Origin: Candidatus Bathyarchaeota archaeon
GTDB lineage: Archaea; Thermoproteota; Bathyarchaeia; Bathyarchaeales; SOJC01
NCBI GenBank assembly: GCA_020354575.1
Contig: CP070649.1
Location: 1,094,360 to 1,158,359 of the forward strand
DNA: 64,000 nt
Direction: 5' to 3'
Positions 1 through 62,129 of the stretch are shown piece by piece; positions within the stretch are counted from its first letter, which is position 1; every line of letters begins with the position of its first letter. Position numbers and translations under genes: made by a program. Below the pieces are notes generated by a model. It saw only the letters and a program-made list of their open reading frames with translations. It had not been told where the DNA came from and ran no database searches.

Positions 1-555
1 CGTATGATGAATGAATGGGGAATACCCAGCGTAGAGATCTGGTCATTGACATATCATTATATCGATAGGCTAGCAAAGAGAGGGGACTATGTCCCTAGCG
101 TAGCCTTTGCTGGAGGTATCACAATGGAAGACCATATCTTCAAAGCATTGGCACTCGGTGCACCCTATGTCAAAGCCATAGGTATGGCTAGAGCCCCCCT
201 CACAGCAGCTATGGTTGGCAAGAATGTTGGGAGCAGGATCGCCGAAGACAATCTTCCTGTTTACTATGCGAGATACGGCAACACCAAAGATGCGATCTTT
301 GTCGAAGCAACAAAGCTAAAGACTAAATTTAGAGGGAAATTCGAAAGTTTGCCTACCGGAGCAATCGGTCTCTACACCTACAATCAAAGGTTGGTCCATG
401 GCCTTAAGCAATTGATGTGTGGAGCTCGGAAATTCACAGTTCAAAATATAACTCGAAATGATATCGCCGCCTTAACTCCTGAAGCTGTAAGAACATCGGG
501 AATCAACTACATTATGGATGTAGATAAGGAAGAGGTCGAGAAAATCTTAGGCTAG
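1..555 (+). CDS. FMN-dependent glutamate synthase-type protein, C-terminal part (cut by window edge)
   Basis: The frame is open to the left edge, so this is the C-terminal part of a longer protein. The visible 184 codons contain FAGGITMEDHIFKALALGA followed by IGMARAPLTAAMVGKN, the glycine-rich FMN-phosphate-binding segment typical of the glutamate synthase large-subunit TIM barrel (GltB/GltS FMN domain). In that family the barrel uses reduced FMN to convert 2-oxoglutarate and ammonia to glutamate. The three-cysteine 3Fe-4S motif of full GltB is not seen; only one cysteine (QLMCGARK) occurs late. Archaeal stand-alone relatives of this domain are often of unproven activity, so the exact substrate is uncertain. 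Confidence 0.7.
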   Translation, partial: RMMNEWGIPSVEIWSLTYHYIDRLAKRGDYVPSVAFAGGITMEDHIFKALALGAPYVKAIGMARAPLTAAMVGKNVGSRIAEDNLPVYYARYGNTKDAIFVEATKLKTKFRGKFESLPTGAIGLYTYNQRLVHGLKQLMCGARKFTVQNITRNDIAALTPEAVRTSGINYIMDVDKEEVEKILG

Positions 556-717
556 GTGCAATGCTATATGCAGAGGTGTTTTCCTGTGCGCATAATCCCA
601 GTTTCTAACTACTGCGGATTTTTCCCTCATCCGTAAGAAACAACGGTATAATTAAAGACATGCCTTTACATGTTTAATTCCGTATTCACGCGTACAAAAT
701 AAGGGGTAGCTAATGTT

Positions 718-1194
718 ATGCCTCCTATGAGAAGTGCTGAAAAACTGGCGATCATCGATGCATTGGATATGAAGATTATCCGGGCATTGCAGATTGATGC
801 ACGAAAGCCCATAGTGCAGATCGCGAAAGAAGTCGATGCCAATGAAGCGACCGTTAGAAGACGCATCGAGAAGCTACTTAATGATGGAATTATCGAGCGG
901 TTTACTGTTGTTTTGGACTATCACAAACTAGGACGAGTGATCAAAGCCTTCATCGGGCTTCGAGTAGAGCCTACTAAACTAAAAGCAATCGCCGAACACT
1001 TGGTCAAGCATCCCGACACACAAGTGGTGTATAGAACAAGTGGCGATACTGACATTATTACCGAAGTCATCCTCGAGAAGATGGAGGATTTGAATGCATT
1101 TCTGGAGGAAGAGCTAAGCCTTGACGGCATCGTAGGAACAATCGTCACGATTGTCATTGGACCCTACAAACGGTGCCCATGGACAGGACTTTAG
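718..1194 (+). CDS. Lrp/AsnC family transcriptional regulator
   Basis: A 158-residue protein with the standard Lrp layout. An N-terminal winged helix-turn-helix lies at about residues 14-65 (LDMKIIRALQIDARKP, ATVRRRIEKLLNDGII), and a RAM ligand-binding and oligomerisation domain follows at about 75-150 (AFIGLRVEP, YRTSGDTDIITEV). Lrp proteins bind upstream of amino-acid and energy-metabolism genes and respond to small molecules. The start at 718 has a weak AGGGGT motif about 11 bases upstream; ATG at 727 is an alternative. It lies between a glutamate-synthase-type gene and the phosphorylase with its own spacers, so it may control nitrogen metabolism, but this is inference. Confidence 0.9.
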   Translation: MPPMRSAEKLAIIDALDMKIIRALQIDARKPIVQIAKEVDANEATVRRRIEKLLNDGIIERFTVVLDYHKLGRVIKAFIGLRVEPTKLKAIAEHLVKHPDTQVVYRTSGDTDIITEVILEKMEDLNAFLEEELSLDGIVGTIVTIVIGPYKRCPWTGL

Positions 1195-1359: not shown

Positions 1360-3129
1360 ATGGCTAGAGATCCCATCTGTGGAATACCTATAGACAAGGA
1401 AAAGGCGCGGTTCAGGACGACTGTGAGAGGAAGAACGTATTACTTCTGTTGTGAATATTGCAAGCATACATTTTTGGAAGGAGAGAAAATAGCGTACTTT
1501 TCTATGGAAGTTGGATTGACTGACGACATTCCGACTTATAGTGGAGGCTTAGGGGTTCTGGCTGGTGACACGATAAGGTCTAGTGCAGATTTGAAAATAC
1601 CCTTAGTTGCGGTTTCGCTTGTCAGCAAAAAGGGATACCTGAAACAAGAGATCACAGTAGAGGGAAAGCAGATCGAACACCCAGCTGAGTGGGCGCCTTC
1701 AGAATTCATGAATGAGCTCCCAACTCAAGTCCGGGTGCAAATTCAAGGAAGAGAAGTGAGTATAAAAGCCTGGCTCTATGATCATCAAAGTTTGATTGGC
1801 GGGCTAGTCTCCATTCTCTTTCTCGACACCGATGTCGAAGACAATACTCCTGAGGATAGAGAAATCACTTCTTTTCTGTATGGGGGCGACGAAAGGTATC
1901 GATTGAAGCAAGAGATCGTTTTGGGAATCGGTGGAGTGAGGATGCTTAAAGCATCTGGCTTCAAGATTAGAAAATATCACATGAATGAAGGACACTCAAG
2001 TCTCCTCACTCTGGAGCTGCTGCGAGAGAGAGATAAGAATCCAGCTAAGATTAGAGATCTTTGTGTATTTACTACTCATACTCCCGTTGAAGCAGGGCAT
2101 GACAAATTTCCTTATGATGTCGTTCAGAAAGTAATGGGGGAAATTGTTCCCTTGGAAATTGTGAAGCGTTATGGTGGCAGGGAGAGGTTGAATATGACAC
2201 TACTTGCTCTAAACTTAAGTAAATACGTTAATGGCGTTGCCAAGAGGCATAAGGACCTCTCGATTAAGTTGTTTCCAGGATACCACATTTCAGCAATAAC
2301 TAATGGGGTTCATTCTTTCACTTGGACGTGTGAGAGTTTCAGAAAATTATTTGATAAATATTTGCCTGGATGGGCAAATGAACCCGAGTTGTTGGTTAGA
2401 GTGGATCTTATCCCAGATGAAGAGATCTGGCAGGCACATATGGAAGCCAAAAGAAAATTGCTGGCTTTTGTTATGGAAAACACTAACGTCAGACTTGATC
2501 AAGATATTCTTACTATTGGGTTTGCTCGAAGGGCAACTGAATACAAGAGAATGAATTTGCTGTTTTCGGATCTAGCAAAACTTAGAGAGATCAATAGTCG
2601 AGGACGGATACAAGCAATTTTTGGAGGCAAAGCACATCCCAAAGACTGGTCGGGAAAGCATCTTATTGAGGAAATCCATGAGTACATCAGAGAACTGGAA
2701 AATGAGATTAAGATTATTTACTTGGAAAATTATGACATGCAGATCTCAGCCAAGCTTACTTCTGGTGTGGATGTTTGGCTGAACACTCCTTTGCCACCAC
2801 TCGAAGCCTCTGGAACGAGTGGAATGAAGGCTGCACATAATGGTGTGATAAACTTCAGCGTCTTGGATGGTTGGTGGATAGAGGGCTATGTAGAAGGGGT
2901 CACGGGTTGGGCGATAGGCCCCTCTCCAAAGGAATCCTTCGGAGAAGATGAAAGAAGACAGATTGAACTGGAAGATTTGTATCATAAATTGCAATACTTG
3001 ATTATCCCTAAATTCTACAACAGAAGAGACGATTGGATACATATGATGGAGAACTCCGTTGGGAAGGTTGCATACTACTTCAATAGCCATCGGATGATGC
3101 GTAGGTACGTTACGGAAGCCTACTTGTAA
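1360..3129 (+). CDS. YHS domain fused to GT35 alpha-glucan phosphorylase
   Basis: A 589-residue protein. Residues 1-40 form a YHS-type metal-binding domain (DPICG with Cys7, then YYFCCEYC with Cys30, Cys31 and Cys34). From residue 44 the sequence is glycogen/maltodextrin phosphorylase (AYFSMEVGL, YSGGLGVLAGD). The PLP-binding lysine is about Lys490 in SGTSGMKAAHNG, and the WLNTPLPPLEASGTSG segment is typical of short archaeal forms. The enzyme would release glucose-1-phosphate from alpha-1,4-glucans using phosphate. The usual N-terminal stretch of about 100 residues is missing and the YHS domain takes its place. An SD-like AGAGGG lies upstream of the ATG. Phosphorylase identity is secure; the role of the YHS module is unknown. 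Confidence 0.9.
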   Translation: MARDPICGIPIDKEKARFRTTVRGRTYYFCCEYCKHTFLEGEKIAYFSMEVGLTDDIPTYSGGLGVLAGDTIRSSADLKIPLVAVSLVSKKGYLKQEITVEGKQIEHPAEWAPSEFMNELPTQVRVQIQGREVSIKAWLYDHQSLIGGLVSILFLDTDVEDNTPEDREITSFLYGGDERYRLKQEIVLGIGGVRMLKASGFKIRKYHMNEGHSSLLTLELLRERDKNPAKIRDLCVFTTHTPVEAGHDKFPYDVVQKVMGEIVPLEIVKRYGGRERLNMTLLALNLSKYVNGVAKRHKDLSIKLFPGYHISAITNGVHSFTWTCESFRKLFDKYLPGWANEPELLVRVDLIPDEEIWQAHMEAKRKLLAFVMENTNVRLDQDILTIGFARRATEYKRMNLLFSDLAKLREINSRGRIQAIFGGKAHPKDWSGKHLIEEIHEYIRELENEIKIIYLENYDMQISAKLTSGVDVWLNTPLPPLEASGTSGMKAAHNGVINFSVLDGWWIEGYVEGVTGWAIGPSPKESFGEDERRQIELEDLYHKLQYLIIPKFYNRRDDWIHMMENSVGKVAYYFNSHRMMRRYVTEAYL

Positions 3130-3216
3130 GTGCATATATGCAGAGTCTACAAATCCGAAAGCTAATTATATTTAATTACTAATTACATATAATTAGCGCT
3201 CTTGGAAGGCGATGTT

Positions 3217-3987
3217 ATGGAAGGCACATTCCTCATTTACGTTATCGTCGGTCTTTCCATTGGGTTTGTCGATTCATCCTTAGGAATGGGGTATGGTGTA
3301 ACTGCAACATCTGTTCTAGTTACCTTTGGAATAGCCCCTGCGGTTGCAAGCGCATCAATTCATACCTCTGAAGGCTTCGTCGATATAATATCCGCCATCT
3401 CTCATTGGAAATTCAGAAATATTGAAACCAACATGCTGCTTCCCTTAGTGCTTCCCGGTGTCATTGGTGCAGCCTTGGGTGCAACACTGCTGTCATGGAT
3501 CTCTACTGAAATCGCCAAACCACTAATTGGCTTTATTCTCCTCTCAATGGGGCTGCTGATTCTTGTTCGGCACATTAAGAAGAATACTCGAAATCAAACT
3601 AGAAAAATCCCTCCTAAGCTCATTCCATTATTAGGCTTCTTCGCTGCTTTCATCGATGTCACTGGCGGAGGGGGATGGGGACCAATTTGCACTCCAACAT
3701 TCATCATAAATGGTACCGAGCCTCGAAAAGCTGTTGGAACGGTGGAAGCCACTGAGCCATTCATATCCCTTACCGCTATGATTGTATTTGGAATACTCAT
3801 TGGATTCGAGACGTTTTTATGGAATATTGTAATCCCTATTCTAATTGGAGGGATCCTTCTCACTCCAGTAGCAGCATGGATTACAAACCGCGTTCCCAAG
3901 AAAGCCCTCGGTATACTGATTGGATTCTGGGTGACTTTTCTGAGTGTGCGAATGATTCTGAAATTTATTGGTGTTCCAATACTTTGA
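3217..3987 (+). CDS. TauE/SafE family membrane permease
   Basis: About 256 residues with roughly eight hydrophobic segments. The two family half-repeats are visible: GLSIGFVDSSLGMGYGV near the N-terminus and LGFFAAFIDVTGGGGWGP near residue 150. TauE/SafE proteins are putative anion exporters or importers (sulfite, sulfonates, organic acids) of the cytoplasmic membrane. I prefer ATG 3217 over an upstream TTG at 3202 because GGAAGGCGATG lies just before it. An AT-rich promoter-like region occupies 3150-3200. It appears monocistronic. The substrate cannot be told from sequence. A second, diverged family member is at 24453-25283. Confidence 0.85.
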   Translation: MEGTFLIYVIVGLSIGFVDSSLGMGYGVTATSVLVTFGIAPAVASASIHTSEGFVDIISAISHWKFRNIETNMLLPLVLPGVIGAALGATLLSWISTEIAKPLIGFILLSMGLLILVRHIKKNTRNQTRKIPPKLIPLLGFFAAFIDVTGGGGWGPICTPTFIINGTEPRKAVGTVEATEPFISLTAMIVFGILIGFETFLWNIVIPILIGGILLTPVAAWITNRVPKKALGILIGFWVTFLSVRMILKFIGVPIL

Positions 3988-4010: not shown

Positions 4011-5060
4011 TTATTTCTTGAAGCTGACTGACCAACGTTTCGAACAAATTTTGGTCTTTTTTTCAAGAGTGTTATTGATAGCTATCAGGGCTACTCCAGC
4101 CCCATTATCTGCTATTCGGTTGATGTCCCACAATATGCCTCTCAAATGAGGGATTTCTGGTAGCTCTGTCATCAGCCTGTCTCTTTCCAACTCGATAAAT
4201 TTTAGCATTTCCAAAAGGCTGTTTGCAATTTTAATGTCTCCGATAAAGAAAGCATCTACAGCCTTCAGGACCAAATCATGGGCTAGGTCGTTTAAATTGC
4301 TTATTTTTGCGATTACCCATTCAGGCAGTTGCTTTTTGTATCTTCGCATGAGCGCAATCACTCTGCGTGCAATTTCCTGAGCATAATCAGCAACTAACTC
4401 GAGGTATCTTAACATCAATCCGAAGTACAGAATGTGTAAAGAATCTTCCAATCCTATAGCATCAGCCACTTCCTTCCTTCTTTGGGCAGATACCAACAGT
4501 CGCATAGCAAGCAAGCACATCATATCAGCTTCATCTTCTCTGCTTATTGCGTCTTTTGCTAATGATTCGTTATTTTCTGTGAGAGCTTGGATTGCTTCCT
4601 TAACAATGGTCAGGGAGATTACTGAAAGCCTTCGTAGTAACATATCTACATGAAATTTCCTTGGGTCAACCGAACATTGGAGAGTGATGTGATCCGCTGT
4701 CTCTTCTACAATTCCCAATCCAATTAGTTTGCGTATGATTCCTCTTACTTCCTCAACATGCTCAGAGCTGATTCTTTCAGAAGATATAACAGAGAAAATT
4801 TCGCGCCCTAAGATATAGTTGCCAACAATGACTCGTTCTAACATATTTGGTTCTTCACACAAGTCAGCATTGCACACATATTCTTCTACTTCATCTTCTG
4901 GTTCAGCAAGCTTGTTTGGAAATAACCGAATCGATCCATCCTTTTCAGGTTTTAGATAGACGTTATCTCCTCTCTGAAGGTTGTTTTCTTTAACCCAATC
5001 GCTAGGAATTGAGACTGAAAGTGTCGAATAGCCTACTTTTTGTAATTTTCTTATTTCCAT
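4011..5060 (-). CDS. AbrB-domain/PhoU-domain phosphate uptake regulator
   Basis: About 349 residues. The N-terminus is a SpoVT/AbrB-type DNA-binding domain (EIRKLQKVGYSTLSVSIP, residues about 1-50). It is followed by PhoU-like helical repeats from about residue 110 to 330, with acidic stretches such as SREDEADMM and ERDRLMTELPE. Archaeal proteins with this layout are regarded as regulators of phosphate transport. ATG 5060 is chosen because GGGTGGATC directly precedes it; the upstream ATG at 5078 has no such motif. The gene is divergent from the RHH/GcvH-like gene at 5171 and shares a 110-bp AT-rich spacer with a palindrome at 5080-5095. No phosphate transporter genes are adjacent. Confidence 0.85.
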   Translation of the reverse strand: MEIRKLQKVGYSTLSVSIPSDWVKENNLQRGDNVYLKPEKDGSIRLFPNKLAEPEDEVEEYVCNADLCEEPNMLERVIVGNYILGREIFSVISSERISSEHVEEVRGIIRKLIGLGIVEETADHITLQCSVDPRKFHVDMLLRRLSVISLTIVKEAIQALTENNESLAKDAISREDEADMMCLLAMRLLVSAQRRKEVADAIGLEDSLHILYFGLMLRYLELVADYAQEIARRVIALMRRYKKQLPEWVIAKISNLNDLAHDLVLKAVDAFFIGDIKIANSLLEMLKFIELERDRLMTELPEIPHLRGILWDINRIADNGAGVALIAINNTLEKKTKICSKRWSVSFKK

Positions 5061-5079
5061 TTGATCCACCCTAAGCATT

Positions 5080-5095
5080 TATAGTAAATACTATA
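5080..5095. promoter_or_regulatory. Palindrome in divergent spacer, candidate operator
   Basis: TATAGTA and TACTATA are perfect 7-bp arms around a 2-base centre. The site lies immediately upstream of the AbrB-PhoU gene (minus) and about 75 bp before the RHH/GcvH-like gene (plus). Both neighbours encode DNA-binding proteins, so autoregulation through this site is plausible. AT-rich palindromes can also arise by chance in such spacers. Confidence 0.4.
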
Positions 5096-5170
5096 TCATA
5101 CAATATAAGCATTATGTATATATTTTTTCTTTTATCTATATACACTCAGGATAATAAGGAGGTAGAGAAT

Positions 5171-5770
5171 TTGAAAAAATGGAAAGCAGTAAGGGTTAAG
5201 CAAGAACTCGTCGAACAAGTCAAAGAGGAAATTGAGAGAAGCGAATACAAAGGGCTATCCGAATTCGTCTCAGATGCTATAAAAGAACGCTTGCAGACTT
5301 TAGCCAAGCAAAGAGTATTCGAATACTTGGAACGAGATAAAATTGCTGGAATCCAACAACTGCACAAGCAAATCTTCTACACACCTGAACATATTTGGGT
5401 CAGAATGACACCTGAGGGGATTGCCGAAGTTGGAATATCAGAATATCTCCAAAGGAAACTTAAGGAAGTAGTCAACATCCGAACAGATGATATTGGAAAA
5501 GAGGTCTTTAAAGGCGAATCCTTTGGTGTAACTGAATCCTGGTGGTTCACTCATGACCTTTTTTCTCCAGTTAGTGGAGAAATAGTCGCAGTTAATGAGA
5601 CAGTTACGAAGGACCCCTTCATCTTGAATACAGATCCATCGATTTGGATTGTGAAAATCCAAACGGACCCTGCAGAAATCGATTCTTGGAAGAAGACCTT
5701 ACTAGATTTTCAAAAGTATCAAGAGATCGTTGGAACCCCTCTTGCCTCAACTAGAAATGAGCTGCAATAG
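5171..5770 (+). CDS. Ribbon-helix-helix domain fused to GcvH-like domain lacking the lipoyl lysine (copy 1)
   Basis: About 199 residues from TTG 5171, which has a full AAGGAGGT eight bases upstream. Residues 1-48 look like a CopG/RHH DNA-binding domain: basic strand KKWKAVRVK, then helices ending GLSEFVSDAIKERLQ. Residues 68-180 align with glycine cleavage H protein (YTPEHIWVRM, VGISEYLQ, DLFSPVSGEI, NTDPSIWIVKI). In H proteins the lipoylated lysine sits in ESVKA; here the aligned segment is ESWWF (residues 122-126), so Trp125 replaces the lysine. It therefore cannot carry lipoate at that place. It is the first of a tandem pair directly upstream of an Hdr operon. A regulator or sensor role is inference. 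Confidence 0.75.
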   Translation: MKKWKAVRVKQELVEQVKEEIERSEYKGLSEFVSDAIKERLQTLAKQRVFEYLERDKIAGIQQLHKQIFYTPEHIWVRMTPEGIAEVGISEYLQRKLKEVVNIRTDDIGKEVFKGESFGVTESWWFTHDLFSPVSGEIVAVNETVTKDPFILNTDPSIWIVKIQTDPAEIDSWKKTLLDFQKYQEIVGTPLASTRNELQ

Positions 5771-5802
5771 CCCATGGAATTACTACGTTAGGAGCTTTGG
5801 CT

Positions 5803-6411
5803 ATGGCAAAATGGAAAACTGTGCGGATCAAACGAGAACTCATGGCAGCAGCTAAAAGAACGGTGAAGAAGGGGAAGTACAGCAGTCTTTCAGAATTTGT
5901 ATCAGAGGCTATTCAATTGCAACTCAATGAGATAAGACAATCGCCAAAGGAGAGAATGAAAATACAAATCGATTATGGTGCTGCCGAAGAGCGCTTGTAC
6001 TGTAGTTCAAACCACATGTGGGCAATGGTGACTTCTGAAGGAAAAATCAGAGTGGGATTGACAGGTTATGCTCAAGAGCGCCTTAAAGGAGTGCTTACTT
6101 TGCAAACTGAACCAATTGGATATGAAGTACATAAGAAGAGACCTTTTGGATATATTGACACTTGGATGTTCAGGTTTGGCCTTTACGCCCCAATAAGTGG
6201 AAGAATTACTCAACTCAACAAATTTGTTCAGGATCAACCTTCCAAAATTAATCAAGATCCTTATCGCGATGGTTGGATCGCAGAGATCGAACCCAGCAAT
6301 ACAATAACATTAGGCGAAGAATTGAGAGATCTGATGAGTCTCAAGCATTATGAAATGTGGGCGATTACGCTACGGCATTTTCCTCGAGCAAAATTCCAAT
6401 GTGCCAAATAG
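5803..6411 (+). CDS. Ribbon-helix-helix domain fused to GcvH-like domain lacking the lipoyl lysine (copy 2)
   Basis: About 202 residues from ATG 5803, with GGAG nine bases upstream. It has the same layout as the preceding gene: RHH-like residues 1-45 (AKWKTVRIKREL, SLSEFVSEAIQLQL), then an H-protein-like domain from about residue 65 (NHMWAMVTSEG, VGLTGYAQERL, LYAPISGRI, NQDPYRDGWIAEI). The lipoyl-lysine position is Met122 in DTWMF. Both copies share a W-[WM]-F pattern where lipoylated proteins have VKA, suggesting a conserved new function rather than decay. The end overlaps the frame of the next gene only if that gene started at 6357, which is unlikely. The two copies are diverged paralogues rather than a recent duplication. 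Confidence 0.75.
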   Translation: MAKWKTVRIKRELMAAAKRTVKKGKYSSLSEFVSEAIQLQLNEIRQSPKERMKIQIDYGAAEERLYCSSNHMWAMVTSEGKIRVGLTGYAQERLKGVLTLQTEPIGYEVHKKRPFGYIDTWMFRFGLYAPISGRITQLNKFVQDQPSKINQDPYRDGWIAEIEPSNTITLGEELRDLMSLKHYEMWAITLRHFPRAKFQCAK

Positions 6412-6467: not shown

Positions 6468-8228
6468 ATGATCAAGCATGATCCTAATAGCATGAGAAAA
6501 CGCAAGCTTCCACCTTGTCGTGCTGCTTGCCCCGCGGATGTAAACGTCCAAGCATATATTGCCTTAATTCAACAAGGCAAATTCAACGAGGCTGTAGAAG
6601 TCATTCGTAGAAGTATGCCCTTTCCAGCAATCTGTGGCAGAGTTTGTTTCAGTCCTTGCCAAGATGCATGTACACGAAAGGAAATTGATAAACCTGTTGG
6701 CGTTCGTTATCTGAAGAGGCTTGCTGCGGATATTGAACGAGAACAAAGAAACAAAAAACCCGAGCCCATCTCTGTATCACATGATAAAAAAGTAGCGATA
6801 ATTGGTGCAGGACCCGCTGGACTCAGCGCTGCGTATGATCTTGCAAAGCGTGGCTATCCAGTGGTTGTTTTTGAGTGCATGCCTGAAGCCGGGGGTATGA
6901 TGAGATACGGTATTCCTGATTATCGTCTGCAAAAGTATGTGGTAGCCAAAGAAATTATGCATATCCAAGACTTAGGTGTAGAAATTAAGACGAATGTAGA
7001 GTTTGGCAAGGATGTTAATTTTGAAACCCTGCGGAGCGAGGGTTATAAGGCTTTTTTTGTAGCAATCGGAGCACAAATAAGTCGAAAACTTGGTGTTCCT
7101 GGCGAAGAGTTGAAAGGTGTTTTCTATGCAGTTGAGTGGCTGAGAGACATAGCTTTAGGAAAAACCGTTGATCTAGGTGAAAAAGTTATAGTTATTGGAG
7201 GAGGCAATAGCGCCATCGATGCTGCTCGCATATCTCTTAAATTAGGGGCAAAGAAGGTCATCGTCGCTTATCGTCGGTCACGGATGGAAATGCCCGCGCT
7301 TCCCCAAGAAGTAGAGGCAGCGAAAAAGGAAGGAGTCAAGTTAAATTTTCTCATTTCACCAAAACGGATCATTGGAGAAGGGGGGAAGGTTAAAGCTATT
7401 GAATTTCTGAGGATGAAATTAGGGAAACCTGATGCAAGCGGTAGAAGGCGCCCAGTGCCAATTCAACGTTCAGAGCATTTGTATGAAGCGAATACAGTAA
7501 TTCCTGCAATTGGTCAGATTGTTAAAACTGCAGGTCTCCCTTCTCTTCTCTTGGATAAACGTGGTTTGGCAATTACAGCCAATTTATCAACATTGGAAAC
7601 TAGAATGCCTGGCGTTTTTTCAGGAGGGGATTCATTAACTGGCCCAGCAAGCGTTATCGAGGCTGTCAAAGCTGGAAAGCGCGCAGCTGAGTCCATTGAT
7701 CGTTACTTTAGCGATAGAGCCATCGACCGTTACATTGACGATGGGGATGTGTCTAACGGAGGAAAAGTGGAAGTTGAGGAGACTACTTGGGTCAAACATG
7801 TGGATACGATAATAAAAAAGCCTGAAAGGTACATTGGCTCTCATGTAGACATTGGCAGATGGGAGGCAAGTTTTGAAGAAGCTGATGAGCTTCTAGCGAG
7901 AAACAAGGAAACCGCGATTTCTGAGGCTAGGAGATGTTTGGAGTGTGGTCCCTGTACAGAGTGCCTCGGGAATGAAAAGCTGTGTGATGCCGACAAAGCT
8001 ATCATTAACGAAAAATTATGTTCAGGATGCAATCTTTGTGCAGTGATTTGTCCATACGCTGCTGTGAAAAAGAACGATGCAGAAATTGCACAAGTTGACG
8101 AAGACTTGTGTAAAGGCTGTGGCATCTGCAGTGCAAGCTGTCCTGATCGAGCCATTACTATGAAGAAACTTCCAGATGCTCAAATCGTAGCTGAAGTTGA
8201 GACCGCCTTAAGGAGGGCAGCTATTTAA
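6468..8228 (+). CDS. GltD-like FAD oxidoreductase with C-terminal ferredoxin domain
   Basis: About 586 residues from ATG 6468. The N-terminus has the GltD iron-sulfur motif (CRAACPADVNVQ, CGRVCFSPCQDAC). An FAD site follows (AIIGAGPAGLSAAYDLAKRG) and then a NAD(P)H site (VIVIGGGNSAIDAARI, YRRSRMEMPA). The C-terminus adds two 4Fe-4S motifs, CSGCNLCAVICP and CKGCGICSASCP. Proteins of this kind pass electrons between NAD(P)H and iron-sulfur partners; here the partner is probably the HdrA encoded next. The stop codon shares one base with the next ATG, indicating translational coupling. A homologue starts the second Hdr operon at the right edge. Which pyridine nucleotide it uses is not clear. Confidence 0.85.
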   Translation: MIKHDPNSMRKRKLPPCRAACPADVNVQAYIALIQQGKFNEAVEVIRRSMPFPAICGRVCFSPCQDACTRKEIDKPVGVRYLKRLAADIEREQRNKKPEPISVSHDKKVAIIGAGPAGLSAAYDLAKRGYPVVVFECMPEAGGMMRYGIPDYRLQKYVVAKEIMHIQDLGVEIKTNVEFGKDVNFETLRSEGYKAFFVAIGAQISRKLGVPGEELKGVFYAVEWLRDIALGKTVDLGEKVIVIGGGNSAIDAARISLKLGAKKVIVAYRRSRMEMPALPQEVEAAKKEGVKLNFLISPKRIIGEGGKVKAIEFLRMKLGKPDASGRRRPVPIQRSEHLYEANTVIPAIGQIVKTAGLPSLLLDKRGLAITANLSTLETRMPGVFSGGDSLTGPASVIEAVKAGKRAAESIDRYFSDRAIDRYIDDGDVSNGGKVEVEETTWVKHVDTIIKKPERYIGSHVDIGRWEASFEEADELLARNKETAISEARRCLECGPCTECLGNEKLCDADKAIINEKLCSGCNLCAVICPYAAVKKNDAEIAQVDEDLCKGCGICSASCPDRAITMKKLPDAQIVAEVETALRRAAI

Positions 8229-8998
8229 TGTTTCGACCTCGAATCATTGGGTTTGTGTGTAACTGGGCCTTACCCAAAAGAATCGAGATTCCAAGTTTTC
8301 CAAGAATGAAAATCTATCCCAAAATGCAGGTTGTGCAAGTGATGTGTGTTGGCAGAATTGATCCGGTTATCGTACTAGATACTTTTGCTAAAGGCGCAGA
8401 TGGCGTGCTATTGGTCGGTTGCCCTTTACCTGATTGCCACTTTGTTAAAGGGAATATTCAAGCTGAAAATAAAACCAAGATTTTAAAGAAACTCCTTTCG
8501 CTAACTGGTCTCGAACCAGAACGTCTGCAACTAGAATGGGCTTACGCTACTGAAATCGAGCCTTTCTCAACTATTGTAGACGCTTTTAGAAATCATATTA
8601 TAAAATTAGGACAATCTCCATTGGTTGGAGAAAATTCGGATGAAAAGATTTTATCGAATATTTTGGCAGCTAAAAATGCTGTTGCGGATTTTAGTTTAAG
8701 AGTTTTGACAGGAAGGGAAGAAGAACTAACAGAAGCAATGAACGCTTATGGAAAGCGCATTCCCCAAGAAGAATTTGACGATTTATTAGATGAAATTGTC
8801 AATAGAGAGTTTCTAAGGCATAAGATACATCTTTTAACAAGCCAAAAACTACTCTCAGTCAAAGAAATCGCAACAATTGTAAACCACAGACCCGCTCTGA
8901 TTCTCCGCCAAATCGCAGACATGACCAGTAAGCATATGATTGCTCTTGATCATGTTGAAGAAACCACTCCGCTTTACAAGGCATTGGAGGTGAAATAA
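8228..8998 (+). CDS. Degenerate MvhD-like subunit with C-terminal winged-helix-like domain
   Basis: A 256-residue protein. The first 140 residues follow the MvhD/hydrogenase iron-sulfur subunit pattern, but CNWC is altered to CNWA (Cys11 kept, Ala14 in place of cysteine) and the usual SYAGADLAG after it is replaced by LPKRIEIPSF. Cys40 (MCVGRIDP), Cys65 and Cys70 (GCPLPDCHF) remain. MvhD normally holds a [2Fe-2S] cluster linking an electron donor to HdrA. The last 110 residues (EEFDDLLDEIV, LLSVKEIATIVNHRP, TTPLYKALEV) resemble a winged helix and match the tails of the MvhD proteins at 55790 and 59635. It lies just before hdrA. Altered cluster ligation is likely. Confidence 0.75.
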   Translation: MFRPRIIGFVCNWALPKRIEIPSFPRMKIYPKMQVVQVMCVGRIDPVIVLDTFAKGADGVLLVGCPLPDCHFVKGNIQAENKTKILKKLLSLTGLEPERLQLEWAYATEIEPFSTIVDAFRNHIIKLGQSPLVGENSDEKILSNILAAKNAVADFSLRVLTGREEELTEAMNAYGKRIPQEEFDDLLDEIVNREFLRHKIHLLTSQKLLSVKEIATIVNHRPALILRQIADMTSKHMIALDHVEETTPLYKALEVK

Positions 8999-8999
8999 G

Positions 9000-11900
9000 A
9001 TGGCGGAAGTGAAAGTTGGAGCTGTGCTTGTGGTTGGAGGAGGTGTTGCTGGAATCCAAGCTGCCTTGGACCTTGCAGATTCGGGTTTCAAGGTCTATCT
9101 GCTTGATCAATCGCCAAGTATAGGTGGCGTGATGGCCAGGCTGGACAAAACTTTTCCCACTAATGATTGTTCAATGTGCATTCTTGCACCTAAACTTGTT
9201 GCGACAGGAAGACACCCAAACATAAATTTGATCACAAAGGGCGAACTTATCGAGCTTAATGGAAAGGCTGGGAACTTCGAAGCAAGGGTTCGAAAGCAAA
9301 GTCGTTACATAAACGAAAGCAAATGCAATGGCTGTGGTTTATGTGCACAGAAATGTCCAATAGAGGCTGTAGATACATTCAATGAAAATCTGAGCAGTAG
9401 AAGTGCCATATATGTTGATTACCCTCAGGCAGTTCCTTTGAAATTCACAATTGACCGAGAAAAGTGTATAGGCTGTAGAACTTGTCAAGAAATCTGTAAG
9501 ACAAAGGCAATCGAATACGATCAACAAGACAGCGAAACAGTTTTAAAAATAGGCTCTATTATCCTAGCACCTGGTTTCGAACCTTTTGACGCAACGCAAA
9601 AAAGCGAGTATGGGTATGGACGGTATCTCAATGTCGTTACCAGTCTGGAATTTGAACGTATTCTAAGTGCCTCAGGCCCATATGGCGGACTTGTCTTACG
9701 TTCGTCAGATGGCGAAATCCCTAAGAAGATAGCCTTTATTCAATGTGTTGGCTCGCGAGACGCTCAAATTGGCAACAATTACTGCTCAGCTGCTTGCTGC
9801 ATGTATGGAATAAAAGAAGCTATAATAGCAAAAGAACATGTGCCTATAAAGCTAAGCTGTTCAATTTTTTACATAGATATTCGCTCTTACGGAAAAGAGT
9901 TTGATGACTATTATTCTCGTGCTCAGGAAGAATATAACATAAGATTTGTAAGGTCAAGACCTGCGCGGATTACAGAAGATCCTAGAACGAACAATCTATA
10001 CTTGCACTATGTAGAGGATGGAGACCCCAGAATCGAAGAATTCGACATGGTGGTTCTATCCATAGGAATGCAAGCACCCAAAAATGTTGAAACACTTGCC
10101 AAAGTACTAGGAATACAACTTAATGGCTACAACTTCTGTCAAACAAGCGTATTCTCCCCTGTCGAGACCTCGAAACCTGGAATATTTGTGTGTGGAGCTT
10201 TTGCTGCTCCTAAAGATATTCCAGAAAGTGTTGCTCAAGCTAGTGGCGCAGCAGCCAAAGCAATTGCAGTCATTGCTTCCGAAAGGGGTAAAGAAATAGT
10301 TGAGAAAGAGTACAAACCAGAGAGAGACGTAAGTCAAGAAGAACCACGCATAGGGGTATTTGTCTGTCATTGTGGAATAAACATTGGCGGAGTAGTAAAT
10401 GTTCTAGAAGTCGTAGAGTATGTTAAAAAACTATCAAACGTTGCTTATGCTGAAGCAAACCTTTACACATGTTCCCAAGACACCCAAGGGATCATAAGAG
10501 AAAGAATCGAAGAACATGATTTAAATCGAGTCATAGTAGCTTCCTGTACACCGAGAACTCATGAACCATTGTTTAGAGAGACTGTTCAAGAGGCAGGGCT
10601 TAATCCCTACTTATTTGAGATGGTGAACATACGAGATCAATGCAGCTGGGTGCATATGCACCAACCAAAAGAAGCAACAGGAAAAGCCAAAGAGCTGGTG
10701 CGCTCGGTTATCGCGAAAGCACGATTATTGAAGCCTTTGAAAAAGCCAATTATAAAGGTGACGCCTATTGGTTTGGTCCTCGGGGGTGGGGTCTCTGGCA
10801 TGACTGCAGCCTTAGAGCTCGCTAAGCAAGGTTTTGAAATACATCTTGTGGAACGGGAAAAGAGACTGGGTGGGCATCTACGTCAAATTCGGTACATGCT
10901 TGAAGGCAGAAACCCTGCAGAATACCTAGCCCTTCTGATAGAAGAAGTCATGAAAAATAAAAAAATCCGCATTCATCTTAACGCCGAAGTCACCGAAGTA
11001 AATGGCTTTGTCGGCAATTTCAAATCGAAAATAAGCTACGACAATGGCGAAGAAAAGGAAGTTGAGAATGGGATAGTGATAATAGCCACAGGTGCAACGG
11101 AATACAAACCTGTGGAATACCTGTATGGAAAATCTTCTGGTGTTATGACCCAACGAGAGCTGGAAGAGAAACTTGCAGAGGGTGAATTCAAAGCTGAAAC
11201 TGTTGTCATGATTCAATGTATAGGTGCTAGAACAGAAGCACAACCTAATTGTGCGAGAATTTGCTGTGGAGAAGCGTTAAAGAACGCATTGAAAATTAAG
11301 GAGATATACCCCGAAACAGAAGTTTACGTGTTATACAAGGATATGAGAAGCTATGGGTTTAAGGAAGACTACTATCGTGAAGCTTCTGCAAAAGGAGTAC
11401 TTTTCATAAATTATACTGACGATAAGAAGCCCAAGGTGACGAACAAAAATGGCAAGCTCGAAATAACATTTTGGGAGCCGATAATAAACGAAGAAATCAC
11501 GTTGGAACCAGACGTTATTGCCCTGAGCGTCGCCACGATCCCAAATCCTGATAACAAGCGCACAGCAGAAATGGTCAAAGTACCCCTGACAAAAGACGGA
11601 TTCTTCCTCGAAGCGCATATGAAACTTAGACCTGTAGACTTTCAAACCGATGGGATTTTCTTGTGTGGAATGGCTCATTCGCCAAAATTCGTTGACGAGA
11701 GTCTAGCGCAAGCATGCGCTGCAGCAGCCCGAGCAGGGACAATCATTTGCAAGAAAACACTTGAAATGGAAGGAGCAATTGCCCATGTGGATGAAAACTT
11801 CTGCGGAGGCTGTCGAATTTGTGAGAATCTCTGTCCTTATCGCGCAATAGAAATGAAAGAAAAAGATGGCGAAGTAACCGCTCACATAATAGAGGCTCTA

Positions 11901-12023
11901 TGTAAAGGCTGCGGAATCTGCGGAGCAGCGTGCCCTACAAAAGCCATTACGATGGGACATTTCACTAATGAGGAGATTATGGCTCAAGTAAAGGCCACTT
12001 TATTAGAGGAAGTGAAAGCATGA
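9000..12023 (+). CDS. hdrA: HdrA-type electron-bifurcating flavoprotein, two-module fusion
   Basis: At 1007 residues it is longer than classical HdrA (about 650). Module 1 has FAD site VVGGGVAGIQAALDLADSG near residue 12, DKTFPTNDCSMC, ferredoxin motifs CNGCGLCAQKCP near 109 and CIGCRTCQEIC near 156, and CVGSR/YCSAACCMYG near 249. Module 2 starts with the HdrA hallmark VCHCGINIGG near 455, then YTCSQDTQ, SCTPRTHEP, a second FAD site LGGGVSGMTAALELAKQG near 594, CIGAR/ICCGEA near 740, and two C-terminal 4Fe-4S motifs (CGGCRICENLCP, CKGCGICGAACP). HdrA FAD is the bifurcation site of Hdr complexes. GGAGGTG precedes the ATG. It overlaps mvhD by 4 bp. Confidence 0.92.
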   Translation: MAEVKVGAVLVVGGGVAGIQAALDLADSGFKVYLLDQSPSIGGVMARLDKTFPTNDCSMCILAPKLVATGRHPNINLITKGELIELNGKAGNFEARVRKQSRYINESKCNGCGLCAQKCPIEAVDTFNENLSSRSAIYVDYPQAVPLKFTIDREKCIGCRTCQEICKTKAIEYDQQDSETVLKIGSIILAPGFEPFDATQKSEYGYGRYLNVVTSLEFERILSASGPYGGLVLRSSDGEIPKKIAFIQCVGSRDAQIGNNYCSAACCMYGIKEAIIAKEHVPIKLSCSIFYIDIRSYGKEFDDYYSRAQEEYNIRFVRSRPARITEDPRTNNLYLHYVEDGDPRIEEFDMVVLSIGMQAPKNVETLAKVLGIQLNGYNFCQTSVFSPVETSKPGIFVCGAFAAPKDIPESVAQASGAAAKAIAVIASERGKEIVEKEYKPERDVSQEEPRIGVFVCHCGINIGGVVNVLEVVEYVKKLSNVAYAEANLYTCSQDTQGIIRERIEEHDLNRVIVASCTPRTHEPLFRETVQEAGLNPYLFEMVNIRDQCSWVHMHQPKEATGKAKELVRSVIAKARLLKPLKKPIIKVTPIGLVLGGGVSGMTAALELAKQGFEIHLVEREKRLGGHLRQIRYMLEGRNPAEYLALLIEEVMKNKKIRIHLNAEVTEVNGFVGNFKSKISYDNGEEKEVENGIVIIATGATEYKPVEYLYGKSSGVMTQRELEEKLAEGEFKAETVVMIQCIGARTEAQPNCARICCGEALKNALKIKEIYPETEVYVLYKDMRSYGFKEDYYREASAKGVLFINYTDDKKPKVTNKNGKLEITFWEPIINEEITLEPDVIALSVATIPNPDNKRTAEMVKVPLTKDGFFLEAHMKLRPVDFQTDGIFLCGMAHSPKFVDESLAQACAAAARAGTIICKKTLEMEGAIAHVDENFCGGCRICENLCPYRAIEMKEKDGEVTAHIIEALCKGCGICGAACPTKAITMGHFTNEEIMAQVKATLLEEVKA

Positions 12024-12460
12024 ACGAGAAAGGAAATTTTGAACCTAAAATAGTCGGATTTTTGTGTAATTGGTGCGCTTACGCGGGTGCAGATTTAGCT
12101 GGTGTCAGCCGAATTCAGTATGCGCCAAACATACGCATAATTCGTGTCATGTGCAGCGGCAGAGTCGATCCTGTCTTCATCTTAGAGGCCTTCAAAGATG
12201 GTGCAGACGCTGTACTTGTTGCAGGCTGCCATTTGCCTTCAGACTGTCACTATATTAACGGAAACTACAAAGCGCAGGCGAGGGTAGCACTTCTAAAAAA
12301 GGTCTTAGAGAATTTTGGAATAGAGCCAGAACGTCTAAGATTAGAGTGGGTTTCAGCGAGTGAAGGAGACAAATTTGCTAACATAATGAATGATATGGTT
12401 GAGCAAATTAAAAGACTTGGACCAAATCCAATGAAAAAAGATGGGGGTAAAATTTCGTGA
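12020..12460 (+). CDS. mvhD: MvhD-type [2Fe-2S] electron-transfer subunit
   Basis: 146 residues matching the MvhD/hydrogenase iron-sulfur subunit family over its full length: CNWCAYAGADLAG (Cys16, Cys19), MCSGRVDP (Cys45), GCHLPSDCHY (Cys70, Cys76). The last motif carries one extra residue compared with the common GCHPGDCHY. It should relay electrons from a donor flavoprotein or dehydrogenase into HdrA. ATGA overlaps join it to hdrA upstream, and GTG/TGA overlap to hdrC downstream. No MvhA/MvhG hydrogenase genes accompany it, so the electron source is probably not hydrogen through a classical Mvh. It lacks the C-terminal winged-helix tail of its paralogues. Confidence 0.9.
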   Translation: MNEKGNFEPKIVGFLCNWCAYAGADLAGVSRIQYAPNIRIIRVMCSGRVDPVFILEAFKDGADAVLVAGCHLPSDCHYINGNYKAQARVALLKKVLENFGIEPERLRLEWVSASEGDKFANIMNDMVEQIKRLGPNPMKKDGGKIS

Positions 12461-12987
12461 TTACTGTAGAAACATACCAGACGCACGTGGAAACTTCTGG
12501 AATTGATAAGAGGTTCAAATATGAAATAAGCAGATTTCCTGGTGGCGAAAAACTGCTTGACTGTTTTCAATGTGGAACTTGTACATCAGATTGCCCAATT
12601 GCACGATTTAGTGATACTTATCGCCCAAGGCAGATCATTCGAATGGCACAACTTGGATTGAGAGAAAGAGTGCTCTCAAGTGAGACCATATGGCTTTGTG
12701 CCTCTTGCTTCACTTGCTCTGACCATTGCCCCCGAGGAGTAGAAGTTGCAGATGTTATGCGTGTCTTGCGGAATTTAACCACTCAGCAAGGCCATATCCC
12801 TCGTATCTTTAGAGAGTTAGGCTCCAGTATCCTTGAATCAGGCTACGCTTACCGAATTCCCAAGCGAAGAATCGACAGAAGAGAAGCTTTGGGTCTACCG
12901 CTACTGCCAAAATGCAACCCAGAAAGTCTAGCTAAGAGCCTTCGCAATGTACGCTTTCGACAATTTCTTAGCGAGAAGGGGAGATAG
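12457..12987 (+). CDS. hdrC: Heterodisulfide reductase subunit C-like ferredoxin
   Basis: 176 residues with two 4Fe-4S motifs, CFQCGTCTSDCP near residue 33 and CASCFTCSDHCP near 80, in the spacing typical of HdrC. HdrC passes electrons from HdrA to the catalytic HdrB. The GTG start overlaps the mvhD stop, and the gene ends two bases before hdrB. The C-terminal 60 residues are basic (RIPKRRIDRREALG). No membrane segments are present, so this is the soluble HdrABC type. It is one of only two genes (with hdrB) giving an HdrBC pair in this window. Confidence 0.92.
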   Translation: MITVETYQTHVETSGIDKRFKYEISRFPGGEKLLDCFQCGTCTSDCPIARFSDTYRPRQIIRMAQLGLRERVLSSETIWLCASCFTCSDHCPRGVEVADVMRVLRNLTTQQGHIPRIFRELGSSILESGYAYRIPKRRIDRREALGLPLLPKCNPESLAKSLRNVRFRQFLSEKGR

Positions 12988-12989
12988 AA

Positions 12990-13880
12990 ATGGCAGAAAA
13001 AGACAAATACCTAATCTTCCTCGGATGCCTGATACCTTATCGAGTTGCAGCCTACGAAATCTCAACAAGAAGAATTCTGCAAAAGCTCGATGTAGAACTC
13101 GTGGAAATGCCGGAATTCAACTGCTGCGGCCTTCCAATGGATCCGGTTGACCACAAAATGATGCTGATAATGGCAGCACGAAACTTAGCCGTGGCAGAGC
13201 AGCAATGTTCAGACATTCTAACACTCTGCTCAGGATGTTCCGGAACATTGAGAAAAGTCAACAAAGCGGTTAAGGAAAACAAAAAACTTTGGCGGTCGAT
13301 AAACACCAATCTTAACAAAGCTGGGTTAAAGGTTGAAGGCTCAATAGAAGTGAAGCATCTAGTTCAAGTTCTGATTGAAGATCTGGGCCTAGAAAGGATC
13401 AAGGATTCTATTGTTAATCCTTTGACGACATTGAAAGTGGCTGAACATAGCGGCTGCCATATTTTGAGACCAAAAGAATCCGCAGGATTCGATGATCCGG
13501 AAGACCCGAAAATGCTCAAAAGCCTGATTGAAATTACAGGTGCCAAATGCTTAGATTATATGAACGAGTCTGAATGTTGTGGAGCGCCATCATCAGGTAT
13601 AAACGACAAAATTGCCCTCCAGCTCACTAAGGATAAATTAAATCACATCAAGAGCGTTGGAGCGCAGGCACTCATAACAATTTGCCCATTCTGTCACATG
13701 ATGTATGACACCAACCAAGGACGAATTGAAAAAATGTTCAGAGAGAACTATGGCATTCCCATCCTACATTATCCTCAACTTTTGGGCCTGGCTATGGGTT
13801 TTTCACCTGTAGATCTCGCGTTTGGTGATCTTCGAGTTGATGCTTCCAATATTTATGCCTGCACTAGTGAACTTAGATAA
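12990..13880 (+). CDS. hdrB: Heterodisulfide reductase subunit B-like (two CCG domains)
   Basis: 296 residues with two cysteine-rich CCG domains. The first has FLGCLIPYR, EFNCCGLPMDP and CSGCSGTL; the second has SGCHILRP, SECCGAPSSGIND and CPFCHMM. In characterised HdrB these cysteines hold noncubane [4Fe-4S] clusters that cleave the CoM-S-S-CoB disulfide. In a non-methanogen the disulfide or other acceptor is unknown. It is the last gene of the operon that starts at 6468 or earlier. Length and motif order fit canonical HdrB, so catalytic competence is likely even though the substrate is open. Confidence 0.92.
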   Translation: MAEKDKYLIFLGCLIPYRVAAYEISTRRILQKLDVELVEMPEFNCCGLPMDPVDHKMMLIMAARNLAVAEQQCSDILTLCSGCSGTLRKVNKAVKENKKLWRSINTNLNKAGLKVEGSIEVKHLVQVLIEDLGLERIKDSIVNPLTTLKVAEHSGCHILRPKESAGFDDPEDPKMLKSLIEITGAKCLDYMNESECCGAPSSGINDKIALQLTKDKLNHIKSVGAQALITICPFCHMMYDTNQGRIEKMFRENYGIPILHYPQLLGLAMGFSPVDLAFGDLRVDASNIYACTSELR

Positions 13881-46525: not shown

Positions 46526-46736
46526 AATTGTTGATTATTCTAGTTCTCTAATTGGAAAACTTCGCTTTCTTGTTGACTCCAAGTTAAAACTAGCCCTAAG
46601 AATACGTTTCTCTTTATGTTTGAAATTTTTGGGAGCATGACATATCGTAGAAAACTCTGAATTAATACGATTTGATTGAAATGTGACCTTTATAAGTTGG
46701 ATTGTAAAAGCAGTTAACACAGTTGGATCTGATGAA

Positions 46737-47747
46737 ATGAAATACGAAGAACTTATGATGGCTGGGGCGACGAAACTGGCAAAGGCTATGACGGAAGCTC
46801 AGACAATAAGGCAGAAGAACTTCGGAAAAAGAATCTTTTTTTACGCACCTAGCTTCACCTATTACAAAACAGAGTATTATTGTTCTTCACCAGCAGCTTT
46901 TCCCTCGATCTCTATAACAGGGTCATCTTGTTCTTTGAAATGTAAACACTGCAATGGAATTGTGCTGAACACAATGTATCCTGCTCGTTCACCAGAAAGA
47001 CTTGTTGAGCTTTGCAGGGATTTAAGAAAAAAGGGTGCTGTGGGAGTTCTGATTAGTGGTGGTTGTTCACCAGATGGATCCATGCCTTTTGAGAAATTTT
47101 TGGATGCAATGGTGGAAATCAAGCATGATTTGAAACTCTCTCTCATGGTACATACAGGTCTTGTTAGCGGTAATCTGGCAGAGCGGTTGAAGGAAGTGGG
47201 AATAGATGCTGCTTTAATCGACATTGTTGGTTCTGAGGAAACGATCAGGGAAATCTATAATCTCAAGGTAACGATAGCTGATTATGAAAGATCGCTTCAA
47301 GCATTATTTGATGTAGGCATCCCCACAGTTCCGCACGTTCTAGCGGGTCTTCATTATGGAAAATTGAAAGGCGAGTTTCAAGCCTTGAATATGATCGCAA
47401 ACTACAACCCATCAGCAGTAATAATAATTGTATTCATGCCAATACGCGGAACTGCAATGGAAAAAGTTGAGCCACCTGATTCATTAACAGTGGGAAAGCT
47501 CATTGTAACTGCCCGGTTCTTAATGCAATCTACACCGCTAGTACTGGGATGTATGAGACCAAAAGGAATGCATAGAGCTGAAACAGATGTTCTAGCCATT
47601 AAAGCTGGCGTGAATGCTATCGCTTTTCCGAGTGAAAAGGCTATCCAAATCGCTGAATCACTCGGCTATGAAATCTCATTTTCTCCCTCGTGTTGTGCTC
47701 AAATCTTCAATGACTTGAGAACTGGAAAATTCAATGAGGGAACATAG
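46737..47747 (+). CDS. Radical SAM protein, BioB/lipoyl-synthase-like (LipS candidate)
   Basis: About 336 residues from ATG 46737 (GGA and GATG motifs upstream; GTG 46683 is the longer alternative). The radical SAM cluster motif CSLKCKHC lies near residue 66, followed by VLISGGCSPDG, a barrel with GIPTVPHVLAGLHYGK, and additional cysteines in VLGCMRPKGMHRAE and SPSCCAQIF that could ligate an auxiliary cluster. It resembles the COG1856 BioB homologues, a group related to archaeal two-protein lipoyl synthases (LipS). A lipoylatable GcvH is encoded 1.2 kb away, which fits such a role, but a partner LipS gene is not seen. Other radical SAM chemistry is possible. Confidence 0.75.
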   Translation: MKYEELMMAGATKLAKAMTEAQTIRQKNFGKRIFFYAPSFTYYKTEYYCSSPAAFPSISITGSSCSLKCKHCNGIVLNTMYPARSPERLVELCRDLRKKGAVGVLISGGCSPDGSMPFEKFLDAMVEIKHDLKLSLMVHTGLVSGNLAERLKEVGIDAALIDIVGSEETIREIYNLKVTIADYERSLQALFDVGIPTVPHVLAGLHYGKLKGEFQALNMIANYNPSAVIIIVFMPIRGTAMEKVEPPDSLTVGKLIVTARFLMQSTPLVLGCMRPKGMHRAETDVLAIKAGVNAIAFPSEKAIQIAESLGYEISFSPSCCAQIFNDLRTGKFNEGT

Positions 47748-48938: not shown

Positions 48939-49349
48939 ATGGTTAAAGTAAAAGATGCTGAAGTGCCTGAAGGGCTAATTTATTCAAAAGATTTTGAATG
49001 GGTAAAAGCTGAAGGTGCCAAAGTCCGAATTGGGATAACAGACTATGCTCAAAAACAGCTTCGAGAAATAGTTTATGTCGAGCTCCCTGCAGAAGGGGAT
49101 ACAATAACGCAAAACGAACCTTATGGTACTGTAGAATCCGTTAAGGCGGTCTCTGATCTTGTAGCGCCCCTAAGCGGTACAATCGAACAAGTAAACACTG
49201 AAGTACAAGACAAGCCTGAACTTCTAAATGAAGACCCCTACAACAAAGGTTGGCTTCTCGTAATTGCGCCCAGCAATATGGAGGAGCAAAAAAACCTAAT
49301 GGATCATCCGCAAGCAGTGGAATGGCACAAAGGTCTCTCAGAAGATTAG
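48939..49349 (+). CDS. gcvH: Glycine cleavage system H protein with lipoyl lysine
   Basis: 136 residues covering the full H protein: YSKDFEWVKAEGAKVRIGI, AQKQLREIVYVELPAEGD, GTVESVKAVSDLVAPLSG with the lipoylation Lys69, and DPYNKGWLLVI. AGAGGTG precedes the ATG by 11 bases. No gcvT or gcvP is nearby. Instead it faces a convergent operon with FlxABC-type, MvhD and HdrA genes. It could act in glycine metabolism with genes elsewhere, or as a lipoate carrier for Hdr-type electron transfer, as described for LbpA in sulfur oxidisers; the second idea is inference. It contrasts with the degenerate copies at 5171 and 5803. Confidence 0.93.
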   Translation: MVKVKDAEVPEGLIYSKDFEWVKAEGAKVRIGITDYAQKQLREIVYVELPAEGDTITQNEPYGTVESVKAVSDLVAPLSGTIEQVNTEVQDKPELLNEDPYNKGWLLVIAPSNMEEQKNLMDHPQAVEWHKGLSED

Positions 49350-52321: not shown

Positions 52322-52328
52322 GCGATAC

Positions 52329-52757
52329 TTACCTCTTCACCAATCGTTCAGCAGGCCCCAAGGCTTTCACCTTCTCCACCACTTCCTTTACAACAGTTGC
52401 AAACTTTTCTCCTTCAGCGGCGGAGACCCATGAGAAATTTAGCCTTCCTGATTCAATTCCAAGATATTCCAGTAGATCCTTCAGGACAGCGAATCTCCTT
52501 CGGGCTACAAGGTTTCCGCTAATGTAATGGCAGTCACCTGGATGGCACCCTGAAACTAGAACCCCATCCCAACCGCGCTGAAGAGCTTTTATTATGAAGT
52601 ATGGGTTGACCCTTCCGGAGCAGGGGACTCGAACGACCCTTATGTTAGGGGGATATTGCATCCTGCTTATTCCAGCAAGGTCAGCTCCAGCGTAGCTACA
52701 CCAGTTGCATAGGAAAGCTAGTATTTTTGGGGTCCATTCTTTCTCAGCGGGTTTCAT
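52329..52757 (-). CDS. MvhD/FlxD-type [2Fe-2S] subunit
   Basis: 142 residues, the short MvhD form: CNWCSYAGADLAG (Cys17, Cys20), PCSGRVNP (Cys46), GCHPGDCHY (Cys71, Cys76). It links the Flx genes downstream to the HdrA gene six bases upstream and has no winged-helix tail. In Flx systems this position is FlxD, which docks the flavin module on HdrA. The motif set is complete. Confidence 0.9.
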   Translation of the reverse strand: MKPAEKEWTPKILAFLCNWCSYAGADLAGISRMQYPPNIRVVRVPCSGRVNPYFIIKALQRGWDGVLVSGCHPGDCHYISGNLVARRRFAVLKDLLEYLGIESGRLNFSWVSAAEGEKFATVVKEVVEKVKALGPAERLVKR

Positions 52758-52763
52758 TTCTGG

Positions 52764-59631: not shown

Positions 59632-59634
59632 CTC

Positions 59635-62126: not shown

Positions 62127-62129
62127 CTG

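Follow-up and report, generated by a model that had tools for sequence, protein, structure and literature searches.

H-proteins acting beside Hdr enzymes are known or proposed in two settings. LbpA of Hdr-like sulfur oxidation is an H-like protein encoded together with Hdr genes, and its lysine is kept in all 95 aligned LbpA sequences (PMC6067878). For archaea without CoM/CoB it has been suggested that H-proteins with a lipoyl group serve Hdr as disulfide partners; the GcvH encoded in the Hdr gene cluster (Ehe cluster) of Culexarchaeia is a proposed disulfide partner of HdrB (PMC9723716). A third relevant system is NikR, which joins a ribbon-helix-helix (RHH) N-terminus to a C-terminal metal-binding sensor domain and recognises the operator GTATGA-N16-TCATAC (PMC7055735).

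The locus analysed here resembles each of these in part. It lies in a 64,000-nucleotide stretch of Candidatus Bathyarchaeota DNA (hereafter the window), which belongs to an archaeal contig of 1.84 Mb, and consists of two adjacent genes, A and B, each encoding an RHH-type segment fused to an H-protein domain. These proteins share the fold and the conserved scaffold residues of GcvH (PF01597), but they lack the lipoyl lysine, possess an extra N-terminal RHH-type domain and also occur in genomes without GcvP. Like LbpA they are encoded with Hdr genes, whereas LbpA has a strictly conserved lysine and no DNA-binding domain. The Culexarchaeia GcvH is treated in its paper as lipoyl-coordinating and non-fused, while A and B cannot be lipoylated at that site. 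The layout that we propose for A and B is that of NikR, but with an H-protein domain in the place of the metal-binding sensor. Two named GcvH-related subfamilies matched only weakly, namely TIGR03077 'not_gcvH' (44 bits against a cut-off of 144) and NF045810 'GcvH_rel_desulf' (33 bits against a cut-off of 150).

Regulators composed of an RHH part and a sensor domain are thus of a known kind, while a lysine-less H-protein domain used as the sensor appears to be undescribed. Our literature searches returned no description of an RHH/CopG-GcvH fusion or of a lysine-less GcvH regulator, in line with the remark of an earlier note on this DNA that no such family was known to it. The fusion is a real, conserved family and apparently an undescribed one. 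We give about an even chance to the reading that A and B regulate an Hdr/Nuo-type redox operon with the lysine-less H domain as sensor. If this is true, the family would be the first H-protein-based regulator within the searches made, and would offer a handle on the nature of the H-protein/Hdr interaction and on the control of electron bifurcation in uncultured archaea.

The altered lipoyl site

Gene A (5171-5770, + strand; 199 residues) starts with TTG, preceded by AAGGAGGT; the 202 residues of B are encoded at 5803-6411 (+). The RHH-type segment covers residues 1-48 in both proteins (5171-5314 in A and 5803-5946 in B). The GcvH domain follows at residues 70-187 of A (5378-5731; Pfam GCV_H, E = 8.6e-25) and 67-185 of B (5998-6354; E = 2.2e-23). 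Its H fold is supported by the Pfam profile and by Foldseek, where the top matches of the B domain (AlphaFold2 pLDDT about 90) are all H-proteins. In the alignments the ESVKA segment is replaced by ESWWF in A (E122 to F126; 5534-5548), which puts Trp125 at the lysine position, and by DTWMF in B (D119 to F123; 6157-6171), where Met122 takes that place; most relatives of B have ETWMF. Gene positions, architecture and lysine replacement, as described in the earlier note, were all borne out by the open reading frame check, the profile searches and the alignments.

The change extends across the family. None of 36 B-type and none of 11 A-type proteins has the lipoyl lysine, which is present in 41 of 41 standalone GcvH sequences; this count compares about 47 aligned fused relatives with the standalone set, and three odd standalone sequences (L111 with ETWNF, L185 with ETWMF and L146 with Asp), which have neither lysine nor RHH, stand outside it because they were left out or found later. 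The earlier note had named lysine in most homologues as one finding that would count against it, and the alignment clearly gave the opposite; its argument that a change common to two diverged paralogues was selected agrees with the absence of lysine from all fused members. Moreover, the hairpin tip was exchanged as a block, from Ser-Val-Lys-Ala-Val-Ser in the 41 standalone proteins to Thr-Trp-Met-Phe-Met-Phe in the 36 B types, with retention of Glu at position -3, the following Asp and the scaffold Pro, Gly, Asn and Trp (column comparison). B-type hairpins read Glu/Asp-Thr-Trp-Met-Phe, with Leu for Met in one member, and A types have Trp-Trp-Phe or longer loops, e.g. ETAAGWPF and ETSARWPL. The observation is far beyond chance, because many other genomes of the order encode full-length relatives, all of them altered at the site. 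A chance or pseudogene origin was rejected, since the roughly 47 relatives retain full frames together with the altered site.

The genome encodes GcvP, an LplA match and two lysine-bearing GcvH proteins: that with ESVKA is encoded in the window (48939-49349), that with ESTKC immediately beyond it. A LipS1-type lipoyl synthase (46683-47747, +; NCBIfam NF053742 above cut-off) lies near the former. The cell hence has lipoylation at its disposal, and it is specifically A and B that have lost the lysine. The ESTKC gene (in the region L151 5887-8957; G000:C1 about 1160886-1163956) stands between a CoA-disulfide/dihydrolipoyl-reductase-like flavoprotein gene and HdrB/HdrC-like genes, a neighbourhood suggestive of a partnership between lipoyl-GcvH and Hdr. 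A role of the fused proteins in glycine cleavage was rejected, as they lack the lysine and occur in genomes without GcvP (e.g. G016, G027, G031, G035 and G051).

The aromatic residues occur solely in the former lipoyl hairpin, and this would suit a lipoate- or redox-responsive repressor in which the groove of the lipoyl arm in the H domain takes up a small ligand (free lipoate, octanoate or another thiol); a genome that encodes LipS1, an LplA match and two lysine-bearing GcvH proteins would suit it as well. However, A and B have different tip residues and longer loops are found in some A proteins, and we hold such ligand binding to be very improbable.

Distribution and phylogeny of the family

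Searching 151 genomes of the order recovered full-length relatives, aligned over both halves, from several dozen genomes. The B type often occurs alone, and the A type is nearly always found just before B. All full-length fusions fall within the order of the window when 398 genomes of the phylum are searched, with the sister orders sampled by few genomes; a named scan of GTDB genomes gave records with the title Candidatus Bathyarchaeota, apart from two listed as uncultured archaeon.

In a tree built from few columns and with long branches, the fusions form one clade (100/98) that contains an A subclade (100/96), and the A/B split is old. A branch (94/81) separates all lysine-bearing GcvH proteins from both lysine-less types. 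L111 and L185 group within the fusion clade and may therefore have lost their RHH part. The former is encoded at 238-720 (+) of its locus; the latter (2169-2663, +; genome G078) is preceded by the composite promoter element described below, with spacing one base shorter.

Gene neighbourhood

Upstream of A, at 4011-5078 (-), is a divergent gene for a protein with an AbrB/MazE-type DNA-binding domain and a PhoU domain (Pfam), here AbrB-PhoU. Such a gene directly adjoins the fusion genes, divergently, at 29 of 32 non-redundant loci. Downstream, all on the + strand, follow a GltD-like FAD/Fe-S oxidoreductase gene that opens the next operon (6468-8228; start codon uncertain, longest frame from 6357) and genes for an MvhD/FlpD-domain protein (8228-8998), an HdrA-type protein (9000-12023; NCBIfam HdrA2 model, E = 0), a further MvhD/FlpD protein (12020-12460), an HdrC-type protein (12457-12987) and an HdrB-type protein (12990-13880), where the MvhD/FlpD, HdrC and HdrB assignments come from profile searches. 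The earlier note had placed the pair before an Hdr operon, and this arrangement recurs: the next gene is the GltD-like start of an Hdr operon at 23 of the 32 loci, in the order GltD-like, MvhD, HdrA, MvhD, HdrC and HdrB, often then hydrogenase genes. At six loci the next gene encodes a TauE/SafE transporter, and in some of them a conserved small gene and NuoE/NuoF-like genes come after it. The window is of the Hdr type, and its TauE/SafE gene (3202-3987) lies beyond AbrB-PhoU.

Two other features of the window were also recorded. A large second cluster (49486-63967, -) contains several HdrA-type and MvhD-type genes and sulfhydrogenase-like subunits, and a gene at 1360-3129 (+) encodes an alpha-glucan phosphorylase-like protein with a YHS metal-binding domain fused N-terminally.

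The N-terminal RHH-type segment

The segment WKTVSIRQELIKEIERIIRTGRYRSISEFVSEAIRLRLEEL follows the usual RHH pattern. Taken alone, the window proteins match Pfam RHH_1 below its curated cut-off (E = 0.017 at residues 7-41 of A, no match in B), while 14 of 23 N-terminal segments of the family match it, the best at 2.9e-7. The family profile finds the B segment as its top match in its own genome (E = 4.2e-25). Among sequences in the PDB the closest are those of Helicobacter pylori NikR, and the family profile aligns with the NikR segment at a probability of 95.5% (hhalign). On this sequence similarity, the RHH part would be a DNA-binding-type domain.

Structure prediction gave a less clear picture. 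The AlphaFold2 monomer of the full protein has helices at residues 2-22 and 29-45 without an N-terminal strand (pLDDT about 70 there and about 90 in the GcvH part). In the model of the segment alone there are helices at 3-22 and 29-48 and a helix at the strand position (pLDDT 88), and a Foldseek search of this model against the PDB gave no match. The RHH strand pairs only with that of a second chain, in the dimer. The earlier note had regarded the absence of an RHH fold from residues 1-48 as evidence against it; here the outcome is ambiguous, as the monomer models, with two helices and no strand, lean against an RHH fold, while the sequence profiles match RHH.

A helical hairpin in monomer models is also what may be expected if A and B are accessory subunits of Hdr and not transcription factors, with the lysine-less H domain filling the lipoyl-carrier docking site and the N-terminal helices serving for oligomerisation or anchoring. 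At many loci short gaps separate the two genes from Hdr genes of the same operon, and the proposal that lipoyl-GcvH acts with HdrB in archaea (PMC9723716) would fit such a role. This seems quite improbable in view of the RHH profile matches of the N-terminus, the TauE/SafE gene that takes the place of Hdr at six loci and a separate RHH-only family that has the same N-terminus and promoter element.

RHH-only proteins of this kind include two of 119 residues (L159 10698-11054, -; L160 13180-13536, -), in which the same RHH domain is followed by a different, Cys-containing C-terminus replacing GcvH. They are encoded beside other HdrA/HdrB/HdrC genes. In another genome (G044; L217 2582-3457, +) the same RHH type is fused to a different C-terminal region of about 220 residues, opposite AbrB-PhoU.

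Conserved promoter elements

Two elements lie in the spacer between AbrB-PhoU and gene A (5079-5170). The palindrome P1, TAGTAAATACTA (5082-5093), is the sole exact match in the whole genome and is conserved in relatives; the spaced inverted repeat P2, GTATATA-N14-TATATAC (5116-5143), is the sole genome match at up to one mismatch. P2 resembles the NikR operator (PMC7055735) in its span of 28 bp and its outer GTAT/ATAC, and is a putative RHH site only. It probably overlaps the TATA box, which would explain its A+T-rich arms in part. The centres of P1 and P2 are exactly 42 bp apart in most relatives. We defined a composite element as TAGTAWWTACTA followed by GTATWTA-N14-TAWATAC at that distance.

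At up to six mismatches the composite precedes 26 of 37 first genes. The corresponding figures are 0 of 9 for second genes, 0 of 42 for standalone GcvH genes and 2 of 740 for shuffles. At up to three mismatches it occurs at 16 places in the 151 genomes (reversed control, 0), 15 of them before RHH-family genes, two of which encode the 119-residue RHH proteins. The sixteenth (genome G040) lies beside AbrB-PhoU with neither an RHH gene nor an RHH-GcvH gene there. What the elements establish is conserved local control of the locus. A broad regulon for P2 found no support, as 14 genomes gave 24 matches at up to one mismatch against 27 for the reversed control, and the non-random ones lie before RHH-family genes.

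The boxes extend beyond the fusion family. A more distant AbrB-PhoU stands opposite a different lysine-less, RHH-free GcvH-like gene in four genomes, three of which have GTAWWTAC boxes at a spacing of about 20 + 31 bp, the mirror of the 32 + 20 bp in the window. Because they also mark AbrB-PhoU loci without an RHH protein, the boxes are not creditable to the RHH protein, and P1 and P2 were rejected as a proven RHH operator. The boxes at G040 and at three of the four distant loci make AbrB-PhoU a strong candidate for their binder.

AbrB-PhoU may in that case be the regulator of the locus and own the GTAWWTAC boxes, with the lysine-less H protein as its partner (co-repressor, anti-repressor or redox input) and the RHH part gained by a single lineage to dimerise or to make additional contact with DNA. 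Its divergent position at 29 of 32 loci would agree with this, as would its pairing with a different lysine-less H protein and similar boxes in the four genomes, the boxes kept in G040 and the branch that splits lysine-bearing GcvH from both lysine-less types. However, genome G033 has RHH-GcvH, no AbrB-PhoU match at E = 1e-50 and a weakened element that is still kept (6 mismatches), and perfect or near-perfect elements precede RHH-only genes that do not adjoin AbrB-PhoU, which is encoded elsewhere in those genomes. We consider this arrangement unlikely.

A possible mode of action

The reading of A and B as regulators draws on the RHH_1 and NikR matches of their N-termini, the H fold and the block exchange of its hairpin with Glu -3, Asp, Pro and Gly retained, the single fusion clade, the adjoining Hdr genes and the composite element before first genes. 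It draws further on the 119-residue proteins at two other Hdr-linked loci with the same element, and on occurrence without GcvP. Against it stand the monomer models and the boxes at AbrB-PhoU loci without RHH, which may be AbrB-PhoU sites. The suggestion in the earlier note of a regulator that borrows the H-protein surface is thus supported in part, by architecture, conservation and location; its sensing role is putative, and so is its DNA binding, as the boxes are not creditable to the RHH protein.

As such regulators, A and B would act locally, as dimeric or tetrameric RHH-type DNA-binding proteins on the redox operon that they head. Their N-terminal RHH dimers may bind near the operon promoter and regulate their own genes as well. 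The H domain would retain the H-protein surface, including Glu at -3 to the lost lysine and the scaffold Asp, Pro, Gly and Asn, and a fixed aromatic tip (Thr-Trp-Met-Phe-Met-Phe in B) would replace the swinging lipoyl arm. In this form it could sit in the site where a lipoyl carrier docks on its partner, in the simplest case an Hdr/HdrB subunit, otherwise a lipoylation enzyme, and report whether the site is free. We infer such sensing of docking-site occupancy from the lipoyl H-like proteins that are known (LbpA, PMC6067878) or proposed (GcvH with HdrB, PMC9723716) as Hdr partners. That the domain senses specifically through docking on Hdr is a tentative idea, and less likely to be right than wrong.

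The lysine-less GcvH genes facing the distant AbrB-PhoU form a second lineage without RHH (L234 from 1027, +; L235 from 1013, +; L236 and L238, -; genomes G072, G043, G075 and G056), located ahead of NuoE/NuoF-like genes. A single ancestral loss of lysine could have given the Bathyarchaeota a class of apo-H-protein signalling modules linked to an AbrB-PhoU gene that heads electron-bifurcation-type operons, of which one branch gained RHH and the Trp-x-Phe tip and another a cysteine-bearing loop, both reading lipoyl-carrier/Hdr redox traffic through the H-protein surface; this is a speculative scenario that we rate as improbable. In the second lineage a longer, cysteine-bearing loop takes the place of the lipoyl hairpin (GRPCANLDEMRCEY; KLYANLDLMRCECV in L235) and might act as an internal dithiol instead of lipoamide.
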